Of a stretch of DNA of 58,577 nt, positions 53,484-57,451 are shown in pieces. This DNA comes from an uncultured Muribaculaceae bacterium (lineage in GTDB: Bacteria; Bacteroidota; Bacteroidia; Bacteroidales; Muribaculaceae): positions 1 through 58,577 of the forward strand of contig CANRCT010000019.1 of assembly GCA_947629175.1 (NCBI GenBank), written 5' to 3'. The notes under the pieces are model-generated. The model saw only the letters and a program-made list of their open reading frames with translations. It was not told the DNA's origin and did not search any database. Position 1 is the first letter of the stretch. The number at the start of each line of letters is the position of its first letter. The translations under genes and the position numbers were made by a program.

Positions 53484-54735
53484 GCGGCTGTCCTCGCGGC
53501 CTCCGGCGCTCGGCCGAGCGGCTTGTCCCGGCGGCCTATCCGGGGGCTCCGCTGCGCTTCGCACCCCGGTTACTATATCTCCGCCCGCTCCGCGGCTTCC
53601 GTCGCCTCCCTCCTGCCGCGTCACCCTCAGTAGTGGATCGGAGTCTCCGGAGGCGAGTGGTGGCGGAAGCCCCCGGAGGGGTGCGGGGCATGTGTTATCC
53701 CCGGTTCGGAGCGGGGGAGCCGACGGGCGACGCAGGCCCCGCCGGCGATCACGCGGAGACCGGGGTCAGTGCCGACTCACCCCGTTCGCCACGAGCCCCT
53801 GCGGGCGCGACCGCGGCGCCTCCCCAGCCGCAGCGCGTGCGCCCCCTCTCCTCTCTGCCCCCCGGATGCCACTCCCGCCGCCTCGCAGCTGATACTCTCC
53901 TCCCTCCCGGCGCTGACGCCCCGCGGCCTTTCTCGCAGCCTCCGGCGCTCGGCCGAGCGGGTTGGTCCGGCTGCCTATCCGGGGGCTCCGCTGCGCTTCG
54001 CACCCCGGTTACCATATTCCCGCCCGCTCCGCGGCTTTCGTCGCTCCCCTCCTGCCGCGTCACCTTCAGTAGTGGATCGGAGTCTCCGGAGGCGAGTGGT
54101 GGCGGAAGCCCCCGGAGGGGTGCGGGGCATGTGTTATCCCCGGTTCGGAGCGGGAGGAGCCGGCGGGGGCGTGTCAGCGTCCGCACCGCCGCTGCGCCCG
54201 CGGAGACCGGGGGCATAGTCGCCCACATCCGTTCGCCGCGAGCCCCTGCGGGCGCGAGGCGGCGCAGGAGCAGCCGCGGCGCGTGCGTCCCCTCTCCTCT
54301 CTGCCCCCCGGATGCCACTCCCGCCGCCTCGCAGCTGATACTCTCCTCCCTCCCTGCGCTGACGCACTGCGGCCTCTCTCGCGGCCTCCGGCGCTCGGCC
54401 GAGCGAATGGGCCCGGCTGCCTATCCGGGGGCTCCGCTGCGCTCCGCACCCCGGTTACCATGTCCCCGCCCGCTCCGCGGCTTCCGTCGCCTCCCTCCTG
54501 CCGCGTCACCCTCAGTAGTGGATCGGAGTCTCCGGAGGCGAGGGGCGGCTGAAGCCCCCGGAGGGGTGCGGGGCATGTGTTATCCCCGGTTCGGAGCGGG
54601 AGCAGCCGGCGGGGGCGTGTCAGCGTCCGCACCACCGCTGCGCCCGCGGAGACCGGGGGCAGAGTCGCCCACATCCGTTCGCCACGAGCCCCTGCGGGCG
54701 CGAGGCGGCGCAGGAGCAGCCGCGGCGCGTGCGTC
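53484..54735. repeat. Tandem array of nearly three ~440-bp GC-rich repeats, apparently non-coding
   Basis: Units start at about 53484, 53923 and 54369 (anchor CTCCGGCGCT at 53501, 53940 and 54386), giving periods of 439 and 446 bases. The third unit stops after ~367 bases. A ~200-base core is almost identical in all three: CTATCCGGGGGCTCCGCTGC, GTAGTGGATCGGAGTCTCCG, GGGGCATGTGTTATCCCCGG. The segment after the core differs more between unit 1 and units 2-3. The DNA is far richer in GC than neighbouring genes and full of palindromes such as CGCTCGGCCGAGCG and CTCCGGAG. Long open frames exist on both strands, but the periods are not multiples of three and the frames do not follow the repeat. I take them as chance. 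Function unknown. Confidence 0.85.
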
Positions 54736-54786: not shown

Positions 54787-54818
54787 TTTGCATATTTCAG
54801 GAAAAAGCGGTAACTTTG
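54787..54818 (+). promoter_or_regulatory. Consensus promoter of the tmRNA gene
   Basis: TTTG at 54787-54790 is followed after exactly 20 bases by TAACTTTG at 54811-54818, a perfect match to the Bacteroidetes TTTG-N20-TAnnTTTG pattern. Transcription would start near 54825 and leave a ~55-base 5' leader to be trimmed. Confidence 0.85.
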
Positions 54819-54878: not shown

Positions 54879-55275
54879 GGGGCTGACCGGTTTTGACAGC
54901 GTGTAGAGGTGGTATGTAAGCATGCAGAGCAATGATGCCTACGCTCTATAATCAGAGACATCGCAAGATTAAATGGCGAAAACAACTACGCTCTTGCTGC
55001 CTGATTGAAGTATAGTAGATCGGCTTAATCCCGGCAACAGTTGCCGGGACAAGACATCGCCCGATTGTCGTCGTCCCGAGACTAATCGACAAGGCGGTGC
55101 AGTTAAATCGGGAATAGGGTCGCAAGCGCCTCGCGCGCGATCCGAAACTACAAGAGGCTAAGGGGTCGGTTGGCTGTCGCTTGCCTGCCGCCCCACGAAA
55201 ACCAACAAGCGAATAAGCATGTAGAAAGCATATTAGTTCCACGTTTGGACGAGGGTTCGAATCCCTCCAGCTCCA
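54879..55275 (+). ncRNA. ssrA: Transfer-messenger RNA (tmRNA)
   Basis: The 5' end GGGGCTGACCGGTTTTGAC and the 3' end GGGTTCGAATCCCTCCAGCT, then CCA, form the tRNA-like acceptor and T-arm (GGGGCUG pairs with CAGCUCC). The tag frame at 54972-55004 encodes NGENNYALAA then TGA; by comparison with P. gingivalis the resume codon is probably the GGC, giving GENNYALAA. A pseudoknot-rich ring with several GC stems fills the middle. The CCA tail is not encoded (ACT follows). tmRNA with SmpB releases stalled ribosomes and tags the broken protein for proteolysis. Its 3' end is a common integration site, and the following DNA looks like an integrated remnant. Confidence 0.95.
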
Positions 55276-55313
55276 CTATGTATCTCAGATGCTGAGGGAT
55301 GAGAACCCGACAG

Positions 55314-55365
55314 GAGGGTTCGTAATCGCGCGAGCGCTTGCGCAGCAAGATCCCTCCAGCTCTAC
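55314..55365 (+). repeat. Split partial copy of the tmRNA 3' end (possible attachment-site relic)
   Basis: GAGGGTTCG at 55314-55322 and ATCCCTCCAGCTCTAC at 55350-55365 repeat the last bases of ssrA (55252-55277), but are separated by a 27-base insert with the near-palindrome GCGCGAGCGCTTGCGC. The whole can also fold as a hairpin (GGAGGG/CCCTCC). It suggests a duplicated target from integration at ssrA. Confidence 0.55.
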
Positions 55366-55800: not shown

Positions 55801-56556
55801 ATGGGAACTAAGATAAATAATATACGTCAGCGAGCCGCTTCTAATGGTATCCTGCTTACATCGTGGCTGGAGAAGCAAGGTGTAAGCAGAAGCGAAATAT
55901 CCGATTATGTTGAATCCGGATGGCTGCTCCGTATATCTACCGGAGTGTATAGGTTTGCCGGTGATAATCCGACTTTATATGGTGTGTTGGCATCATATCA
56001 GGCTCAAAACGATTTGAAATACCATATAGGAGCAGCTACTGCTTTGGAATTAAAGGGTTTTTCTCATTATATAAATATGGGAAAACCTACCGCAGTCATA
56101 TTCGCTCCGGTGAAACCTCCCCTACCTAAATGGATCAGTCAGGCAGAACTCGACATGAATCCTTTGGAGGTGTCGTCCAAAGTTATAGGAGAAAAAGGGA
56201 TAGAGCAGATAGAATATAACGGCATGACACTGACTGCGTCGAGCCCGGAGAGGGCTATAATGGAATGTCTGTTGCTTTCGCCTATTCGATATGACATGAT
56301 GGACATATATTATCTGATGGAGATGCTGACATCTCTCAGGGTTTCACTTGTCCAGCAGTTGCTTGAAGACTGCACATCGGTGAAGGTAAAGCGACTGTTC
56401 CTGTTTATGGCGGAAAAGGCCAGACACCGCTGGTTCTCAAAACTTGATCTTTCAAGAATATCACTCGGAAGCGGCACGCGCAGTTTTGCCAAAGGTGGAG
56501 TGAAGATTGCAGCGTATGATATAGTAGTCTCTAAGGAACTTGCAGATTATGAATGA
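55801..56556 (+). CDS. AbiEi-type antitoxin/transcriptional regulator
   Basis: A 251-residue protein. The N-terminal winged helix (about residues 1-60; LTSWLEKQGVSRSEISDYVE, then SGWLLRISTGVYRF) is the AbiEi_4-like antitoxin domain. The rest has YHIGAATALELKGFSHYI, VIFAPVKPPLPKW and SSPERAIMECLL, as in AbiEi C-terminal domains. In AbiE systems the antitoxin represses its own operon and counteracts the nucleotidyltransferase toxin without binding it tightly (type IV). The gene starts 13 bases behind a consensus promoter and overlaps the toxin gene by eight bases. Codon use is AT-rich, unlike the flanking chromosome, which fits recent transfer. Confidence 0.85.
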   Translation: MGTKINNIRQRAASNGILLTSWLEKQGVSRSEISDYVESGWLLRISTGVYRFAGDNPTLYGVLASYQAQNDLKYHIGAATALELKGFSHYINMGKPTAVIFAPVKPPLPKWISQAELDMNPLEVSSKVIGEKGIEQIEYNGMTLTASSPERAIMECLLLSPIRYDMMDIYYLMEMLTSLRVSLVQQLLEDCTSVKVKRLFLFMAEKARHRWFSKLDLSRISLGSGTRSFAKGGVKIAAYDIVVSKELADYE

Positions 56557-57451
56557 CATATACAGACGTAAAGTAGAACTTCTACTGCGGATACTCCCAT
56601 TCGTTACCGACGAGGAATGCTTTGCAATACATGGTGGAACTGCCATCAATCTTTTTGTAAAAAATCTGTATCGCCTGTCTGTCGATATAGATGTGACTTA
56701 CATACCCCTTGAAGACAGAAAGAGCAGCCTTGAACATATAAATGACGCTCTTATGAGAATCGCGGACAGGGTCAAAAGTCGTTTTCGCGACATTAGGATA
56801 ATACCACGTCTCGACACAAGTAAAATCACGTGTGAAAGCCGGGGATGCCAAGTCAAGATTGAGGTCAACCAGACCAAACGTGGTCTCGTGTGTGGAGCAG
56901 CCGCACTGCATCCGTTATGTGAAAAGGCACAAGATTTGTTTGGCATGGAAGTCGATGCCAGAATCGTGTCTATCCCCCAGTTATATGGTGGAAAGATTTC
57001 AGCAGCTTTGTCTCGGCAGCATCCACGTGACCTTTTTGACATAAGCCAGATGGACTTTCCAATAGAAGATGTGAAGGAAGGTCTTGTATTCTGCCTGCTG
57101 GGCAGCGATCGTCCCATTCATGAATCATTCGCTCCAAATCTTATTGACCAACGCGATGCGATGGAACATCAGTTTGCCGGAATGAGTGAAATCCCGTTTA
57201 CATACGAGGAATTTGAATCGACAAGAGATAAACTTATACGGGATGTCAATTCGGCTATGACGGAAAATGACAAGAAATTTCTTATCGGGTTTGAAGACCT
57301 GACTGTTGACTGGAGCGATACCGTTTACTCCGGCTTCCGGGATTATCCGTCGGTTAAATGGAAAATCCAGAACTTGCAGAAACTGAAGAAGTCCAATCCG
57401 AAAAAGTTAATAACAGAGGCAGACAAACTTCGAGAGATATTCAAAGTATAG
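56549..57451 (+). CDS. AbiEii-type nucleotidyltransferase toxin
   Basis: A 300-residue protein. I choose the ATG at 56549 (MNDIYRRKVELLLRI), inside the antitoxin stop region; a TTG three codons upstream is possible. The nucleotidyltransferase motif is FAIHGGTAINLF, then RLSVDIDVTYIPL with the metal-binding DID, followed by KIEVNQTKRG and IPQLYGGKISAALSRQHPRDLFDI, all typical of the AbiEii/Fic-unrelated NTase family. By family it modifies tRNA or another target with nucleotides and arrests growth, for example in phage defence. The pair lies next to an integrase remnant at ssrA, a usual place for defence cargo. A terminator follows. Confidence 0.87.
   Translation: MNDIYRRKVELLLRILPFVTDEECFAIHGGTAINLFVKNLYRLSVDIDVTYIPLEDRKSSLEHINDALMRIADRVKSRFRDIRIIPRLDTSKITCESRGCQVKIEVNQTKRGLVCGAAALHPLCEKAQDLFGMEVDARIVSIPQLYGGKISAALSRQHPRDLFDISQMDFPIEDVKEGLVFCLLGSDRPIHESFAPNLIDQRDAMEHQFAGMSEIPFTYEEFESTRDKLIRDVNSAMTENDKKFLIGFEDLTVDWSDTVYSGFRDYPSVKWKIQNLQKLKKSNPKKLITEADKLREIFKV

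Follow-up and report, generated by a model that had tools for sequence, protein, structure and literature searches.

A tandem array of REP-like inverted doublets upstream of ssrA in a Muribaculaceae genome and its probable mobilisation by a subclass 1.2 Y1 transposase

Repetitive extragenic palindromic (REP) sequences are 20-40 bp long in their classical form (PMC3733652). In the REPtron, which comprises REPs, REP doublets forming hairpins (REPINs), bacterial interspersed mosaic elements (BIMEs) and the class 2 transposase TnpA-REP, or REP-associated tyrosine transposase (RAYT), dispersed intergenic palindromes carry a short unpaired foot (GTAG or GGAG at the 5' base of the hairpin), form doublets of opposite orientation and mosaics, bracket a low-copy Y1 HUH gene and have a sequence proper to each family. 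Terminal inverted repeats (TIRs), some of them in dispersed families, surround the Y1 transposases of the TIRtron/TIRYT systems (PMC3733652), and 20 of the 26 described TIRYTs belong to subclass 2.1 (PMC6006769). Di Nocera et al. 2013 reported GTAG repeats in Verrucomicrobia as well as dispersed TIRs around other Y1 genes (PMC3733652). Hairpins are also found at the ends of the IS200/IS605 insertion sequences (ISs) such as IS608 and ISDra2, while the TnpA-Y1 proteins of subclass 1.2, known from Bacteroidetes, of about 148 aa, with the motifs Y---Q--HH and H-x-H and a mean genomic copy number of 1.7, a rarely studied group, were listed in their one description, by Quentin et al. 2018, as 'REP: no' and as generally lacking typical IS200 end structures (PMC6006769). 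Here we describe a GC-rich tandem array at positions 53484-54735 of a 58,577-bp contig (CANRCT010000019.1, hereafter the window) of an uncultured Muribaculaceae bacterium, located between a putative fimbrial tip gene and ssrA. We consider, with a probability of roughly three in four, that a non-autonomous palindromic element, probably mobilised by a transposase of subclass 1.2, has expanded in tandem here into a BIME/REPIN-like array.

The array, to which no strand was assigned as a whole, contained 2.8 copies of a unit of about 446 bp, starting at 53484, 53923 and 54369 (spacings of 439 and 446). Unit 1 (53484-53922, + strand) and the truncated unit 3 (54369-54735, + strand) were 88% and 95% identical, respectively, to unit 2 (53923-54368, + strand), which was used as the query unit. 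Tandem Repeats Finder reported positions 53493-54735 with a period of 446, 2.8 copies, 91% matches and a score of 2055, the remaining three arrays of the window scoring 53-61. The tandem array described in the initial annotation was confirmed, and the short palindromes that it named were present in the sequence. A frame-preserving coding repeat was ruled out, as had been argued, because neither 439 nor 446 is a multiple of three, and the open frames of up to 377 aa that span the array look like a by-product of its high GC content. This content was about 0.70-0.78 in 200-base windows, against 0.35-0.50 in the left gene and 0.37-0.62 on the right side; the sharp contrast in composition claimed for both neighbours was thus confirmed on the left and failed in part on the right, which is only partly AT-rich.

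Alignment of the parts of the unit revealed two related half-elements, A and B. The unit forms an inverted doublet, with A on the + strand and B on the - strand, because R1, a model of A, detected two of the array's three B copies on the opposite strand, and R2, a model of B, found all three A copies; both models were built partly from the array copies of the window. When the window and 20 other loci were searched with R1 and R2, the half-elements of the array scored 34-114 bits (E 3e-5 to 4e-21). Half-element A was localised at 53490-53603 in unit 1, 53929-54042 in unit 2 and 54375-54488 in unit 3 (106.7, 113.9 and 108.5 bits with R1). Half-element B was localised at 53662-53814 in unit 1 (37.8 bits with R1; 60.6 bits with R2 at 53669-53766), at 54108-54213 in unit 2 (88.5 bits with R2; no match with R1 at E 0.05) and at 54548-54707 in unit 3 (36.4 bits with R1; 87.4 bits with R2 at 54554-54659).

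Both halves showed the same order, namely a palindrome P1 (e.g. CCCTCCGGGG), a spacer, a hairpin P2, a foot (TTACC or ATAAC) directly 3' of P2, and a palindrome P3. The P2 stem was CCGGGG...CCCCGG in A; in B, where the insert is longer, it was CCCCGG...CCGGGG, an exchange that is compensatory in itself. In the A copy of unit 2, on the + strand, P1 was placed at 53935-53948 by sequence, R1 structure and covariation, P2 (CCGGGG ... CCCCGG) at 53979-54008 and P3 (CCGCTCCGCGG) at 54024-54034 by sequence and R1 structure, and the foot TTACC at 54009-54013 by sequence and by the foot analysis of other loci. The alignment cells changed on both sides of a pair numbered 8 in A, 12 in B and 13 in a further family, C, described below, against means of 2.1, 4.5 and 5.1 in shuffled alignments, the structures having been predicted from the same alignments and the shuffles ignoring relatedness. 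The count of pairs with changes on both sides was by itself less striking: of 500 shuffles, 3 attained it in A, 32 in B and 21 in C.

A search of the genome that carries the array (79 contigs; completeness 99.89, contamination 0.22) with PF01797 (Y1_Tnp) gave one match, on contig C5. This gene was bracketed on both sides by B-type elements in opposite orientation, with their P1 ends facing the gene, which is the arrangement used to recognise REP/REPtron systems. The protein has 153 aa and bears the motifs DHVH (H-x-H) and YISRQKEHH (Y---Q--HH). It passed the NCBIfam IS200/IS605 model NF033573 (70.4 vs a cut-off of 55 bits) and failed the REP-associated tyrosine transposase model NF047646 (22.8 vs a cut-off of 80 bits), so that membership in the canonical RAYTs (class 2 TnpA-REP) was rejected. 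Its signature matches that of subclass 1.2 TnpA-Y1, to which we assign it on these motifs. As expected for this subclass, the copy number was low, with one gene here and 1-9 transposase matches in each of the other genomes that had any; multiple near-identical full-length IS copies, which characterise subclass 1.1, were not seen in this genome with its one PF01797 match. A model of a relative (L068), made from an alignment of 37, had a pLDDT of 94.5, and the profile from the same alignment matched solved IS200-type transposases, the best being ISHp608 (2a6m) at 2.9e-15. The structures 2xm3 and 2xma are those of ISDra2.

The repeats were dispersed in the same genome. The unit had 28 matches, most of them over its part ~1-135 or ~165-344, and R1 found 27 half-elements at 15 places including the window array (E<=0.01), often paired in opposite orientation; 11 copies of this genome scored 95-128 bits with the A model. 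Open reading frames (ORFs) adjoined the repeats in 12 of the 12 loci examined, consistent with dispersed, multi-copy intergenic palindromes. A called ORF overlapped the repeat at two loci (L015 and L017) and GC-rich frames covered some other copies. A Pfam match at E<=0.001 was obtained for 13 of the 20 flanking ORFs, some under the curated cut-off, and the genes were of many kinds. Because several copies lay at contig ends (the end of C5 and the starts of C20, C31 and C33), the true copy number is probably higher than the one counted. When 34 genomes from the genus were searched with R1 at E<=1e-5, this genome gave 21 matches, G005 five, G012 one and the other 31 none.

The transposase of G005 was 35% identical to the one described above, and the element bracketing it, family C, had relatives in the genome of the array. 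With R3, a model of family C, 24 matches at E<=1e-5 were found in this genome, nine each in G005 and G012, and ten, all weak, in G030; six other congeners had none, nor did the window. Family C has the same layout as A and B. It appears to be an orphan in the genome of the array, since the PF01797 search found a single Y1 gene there and no cognate transposase for C. According to hand-entered R1 and R3 match rows, a C doublet enclosed an A element on contigs C7, C11, C17 and C32, and A/B elements enclosed C on contigs C6, C7 and C78; these nested mosaics are like those of BIMEs.

Transposase homologs at E<=1e-10 were present in 88 of 198 genomes of the family. From the contigs of named genomes the best 80 of 332 loci were taken, and the removal of 17 near-duplicates, together with L047, to which no ORF was assigned, left 92 non-redundant loci, 87 of which encoded both signatures (H-x-H and Y---Q--HH). 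L083 and L109, with a short open frame at the match, and two loci with too little flank were left out later. The loci were split by number and not by taxonomy into group 1 (55 loci, mostly Muribaculaceae and other Bacteroidales) and group 2 (33 loci of mixed phyla, holding eight Bacteroidota by record title: L115, L116, L117, L119, L120, L126, L135 and L147), and mismatched pairings of flanks were made within each group.

The flanks of many relatives read P1 - P2 - foot - P3 outward on both sides of the gene, with hairpin sequences that differed by lineage. In 44 of the 55 loci of group 1 and 15 of the 33 of group 2, the upstream flank was more similar to its own inverted downstream flank than to that of any other locus in the group, and 11 of the 25 loci in the non-Bacteroidota part of group 2 beat all mismatched pairings; the mean scores were 42.4 vs 10.0 for mismatched pairings in group 1 and 28.4 vs 12.5 in group 2. 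When the flanks were read outward, 73 of the 180 had a perfect stem plus foot, as against 14 of the 180 in the inward reading and 8 of 162 distal stretches (Fisher p 1.5e-13 for outward vs inward and 4.8e-16 for outward vs distal), in a test that undercounts because it demands perfect stems of at least 6. The foot 3' of P2 had the profile GG-YTA[ACT]Y-nA, of which the leading GG and the trailing A lay outside the searched motif. On the other strand the foot reads R[AGT]TAR before the hairpin, and by eye it was GTAG-C at some loci outside Bacteroidales and mostly TTAA-C in Bacteroidales. The similarity of the flanks tracked that of the transposases over 90 loci (r 0.59, reached in 0 of 999 permutations). 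Signature-bearing proteins also occurred in records titled as further phyla. Since GTAG repeats in Verrucomicrobia and dispersed TIRs around other Y1 genes are on record (PMC3733652), some repeats outside Bacteroidota may have been published before as GTAG repeats or TIRs. Four records titled as Firmicutes metagenome-assembled genomes (L079, L083, L086 and L092; Lachnospiraceae, Lachnoclostridium, Pseudoflavonifractor and Clostridium) encoded proteins 55-58% identical to the Muribaculaceae-type query, and L079 was a near-duplicate of L042, from the family of the window organism; these titles may be mislabelled.

When ten downstream segments were joined into a single query, each of the 10 source genomes gave 4-34 matches, counting matches to any segment (those of G191, for instance, fell mostly on the segment from a congener), and the same query of foreign elements gave none in the genome of the array. 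Copies of a genome's own segment away from the gene were visible, among the matches listed, in 8 of the 10. Eleven of 13 control genomes, which had no homolog at 1e-10 (G024, G002 and G013 among the controls hold other PF01797 proteins), gave no matches, and G070 and G072 gave 4 and 10. For eleven segments from other named genomes, the respective records gave 4, 44, 8, 1, 2, 2, 20, 2, 44, 17 and 3 matches, again counting matches to any segment of the joined query, with at least eight in 5 of 11. Many repeat copies were thus common without being universal. In one further genome (G164), two transposase copies of equal score, each with flanking elements, lay about 3 kb apart (contig C6, 103183-103623 and 106499-106939), which is a local duplication of the whole gene-plus-repeat unit.

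The repeats, then, were associated with the transposase genes, shared a layout around them, were present in many copies and had diversified together with the transposases, suggesting that the transposase spreads the repeats. Their mobility, as well as binding and cleavage by the enzyme, we infer by analogy with TnpA-REP and REPs and with the IS608 and IS200/IS605 TnpA (PMC8266576). The subclass 1.2 Y1 transposase would recognise the P2 hairpin on single-stranded DNA, the foot would serve as its guide or cleavage signal, and doublets would be moved or copied into intergenic DNA. One A/B doublet may have landed upstream of ssrA, and homologous recombination or replication slippage may then have multiplied it to 2.8 tandem units, of which the second and third are presumably the most recent copies.

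Several observations weigh against a transposase-driven, REP-like origin. No transposition event, target or empty site was seen, the compared species being too distant and no dedicated target or empty-site analysis having been made. The half-elements, of about 100-160 bp, are longer than classical REPs, and the tie of A to the transposase is weaker because the gene is bracketed by B-type copies. Among the relatives, 11 of 55 and 18 of 33 loci failed to beat all mismatched pairings, and 107 of 180 flanks, those of the genome of the array included, had no perfect stem plus foot. The own-segment copies listed for G124 all lay within about 1.5 kb of the gene, two of the four matches were listed for G082, both at the gene, and 5 of the 11 named-genome records had 1-3 matches. 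G070 and G072 carried related repeats without any PF01797 match, which are either orphan repeats or the result of a gene missing from the draft. Finally, tail-to-tail pairs prevailed among neighbours of opposite orientation in the genome of the array, with 6 of 9 within 160 bp and 9 of 12 within 550 bp (3 of 4 and 6 of 7, respectively, outside the window array), in a hand-entered list to which three B rows were added with ends set by hand and in which within-array pairs were counted; in the other genomes, by contrast, most such pairs among the matches listed were head-to-head, as in the gene-bearing element.

The strongest of the other explanations, which we still regard as unlikely, is that the repeats are relics, like miniature inverted-repeat transposable elements, of IS200/IS605 ISs of subclass 1.1, i.e. 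passive deletion derivatives with no domesticated transposase involved. It agrees with the score of the protein above the IS200 cut-off, with IS200-type TnpA as the best solved relatives, and with the doublets of other genomes, in which opposite neighbours within 160 bp were head-to-head in 22 of 24 cases among the matches listed, resembling the gene-bearing element minus its gene (coordinates were entered by hand, without self matches and most rows beside the gene). However, it is at odds with the few transposase genes per genome, which the repeats outnumber, with a signature of subclass 1.2 and not of 1.1, and with lineage-specific flanks whose similarity follows that of the transposase.

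It seems rather improbable that the array, whatever its origin, is kept for a host function at ssrA or the upstream gene, as a set of BIME-2-like sites for gyrase or nucleoid proteins, a terminator or an mRNA-stability element. The array ends about 75 bp before a sequence at 54811-54818 that we take to be promoter-like, TAACTTTG, which it leaves intact, and about 145 bp before ssrA, and its hairpins show compensatory changes. However, in all 20 congeners whose ssrA scored above the Rfam cut-off, the ssrA locus lacked R1 and R2 matches and no 100-base window in the 432-600 bases upstream of ssrA exceeded 0.63 GC, and the copies elsewhere adjoin genes of many kinds. Since these 20 sampled congeners are without it at ssrA, the array is peculiar to this species among those sampled, and the link to ssrA was rejected; a functional link to ssrA or the fimbriae, which the initial annotation would have drawn had the copies always lain near such genes, found no support. 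A protein-binding array, another early proposal, may apply as a side role.

The third early proposal, a structured non-coding RNA array, is hardly credible. Hairpins with compensatory changes speak for it, whereas a 378-base stretch of unit 2 folded no better than its shuffles (z 0.18; with DNA parameters, 57 of the 100 did as well or better), no Rfam family reached its gathering score on the array, the dispersed sites show both orientations, and the same layout brackets transposase genes; it was rejected on the folding and Rfam results, even if the small hairpins do show compensatory changes. An assembly or contamination artefact is just as implausible: the assembly seems to break at the repeats, with copies at contig ends, and the array copy number could be off, but the units differ from one another, sit inside a 58.6-kb contig of a genome with the completeness and contamination given above, and gave no hit when collections of plasmids and phages were searched at 'distant' sensitivity, a result by which a plasmid or phage origin was likewise rejected.

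The mobile non-autonomous element that expanded here, the remaining option of the initial annotation, is therefore the best fit, and its view that no REP form fits was not upheld, the array being REP-like and belonging to a type for whose transposase the absence of REPs had been listed. The array has in common with the REPtron the traits given at the outset, but the transposase here resembles IS200, carries the subclass 1.2 signature and is not of class 2, the foot is YTA[ACT]Y 3' of P2 and not GTAG/GGAG at the 5' base of the hairpin, and the half-elements have three hairpins. With the TIRYT systems it shares inverted repeats around Y1 transposases, although their motif GGGG[AT][CG]A[CG] (PMC3733652) differs from GGGGTTAAC found here. 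Protein family and end hairpins are those of IS200/IS605, but no high-copy IS was found and the long multi-hairpin ends also exist alone. Finally, the proteins resemble the published subclass 1.2 in motifs, size, copy number and Bacteroidetes hosts, whereas many of the members examined here have inverted hairpin flanks and some belong, by record title, to further phyla.

These comparisons lead us to favour, somewhat less firmly than the reading of the array itself, the view that P1-P2-foot-P3 half-elements with the foot YTA[ACT]Y form a third large REP-like class that occurs in several phyla and serves subclass 1.2 transposases, which are IS200-like, as their substrate. On this view the IS200 branch (class 1) and class 2 would each have given rise to REP systems independently, and families A, B and C of the genome of the array would be nested mosaics, C having lost its transposase. 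The finding partly contradicts the published statement that subclass 1.2 has no REP-like repeats (PMC6006769); a link of subclass 1.2 transposases to such repeats was not found in print in the one open-access library searched. Subclass 1.2 transposases, listed without a substrate, thereby gain a candidate one whose foot and hairpin can be put to the test, a class of intergenic repeats, rich in GC, at which assemblies seem to break is explained, and the domestication of Y1 transposases into repeat-spreading systems is suggested to have occurred more than once. The window array would be one local expansion, probably neutral.

With regard to its surroundings, the gene to the left, which the initial annotation took for a fimbrial tip gene, had only a weak match, to DUF4906, and the tmRNA gene (ssrA) was located at 54879. 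An AbiEi/AbiEii type IV toxin-antitoxin pair was recognised with Pfam just downstream of ssrA (55801-57451). The 3' end of ssrA (55261-55276) was partly repeated 89 bp downstream, at 55350-55365 (94% over 16 bases), and a longer pattern of the ssrA end occurred once in the window; the repeat is possibly the attachment-site remnant of an integrated island.
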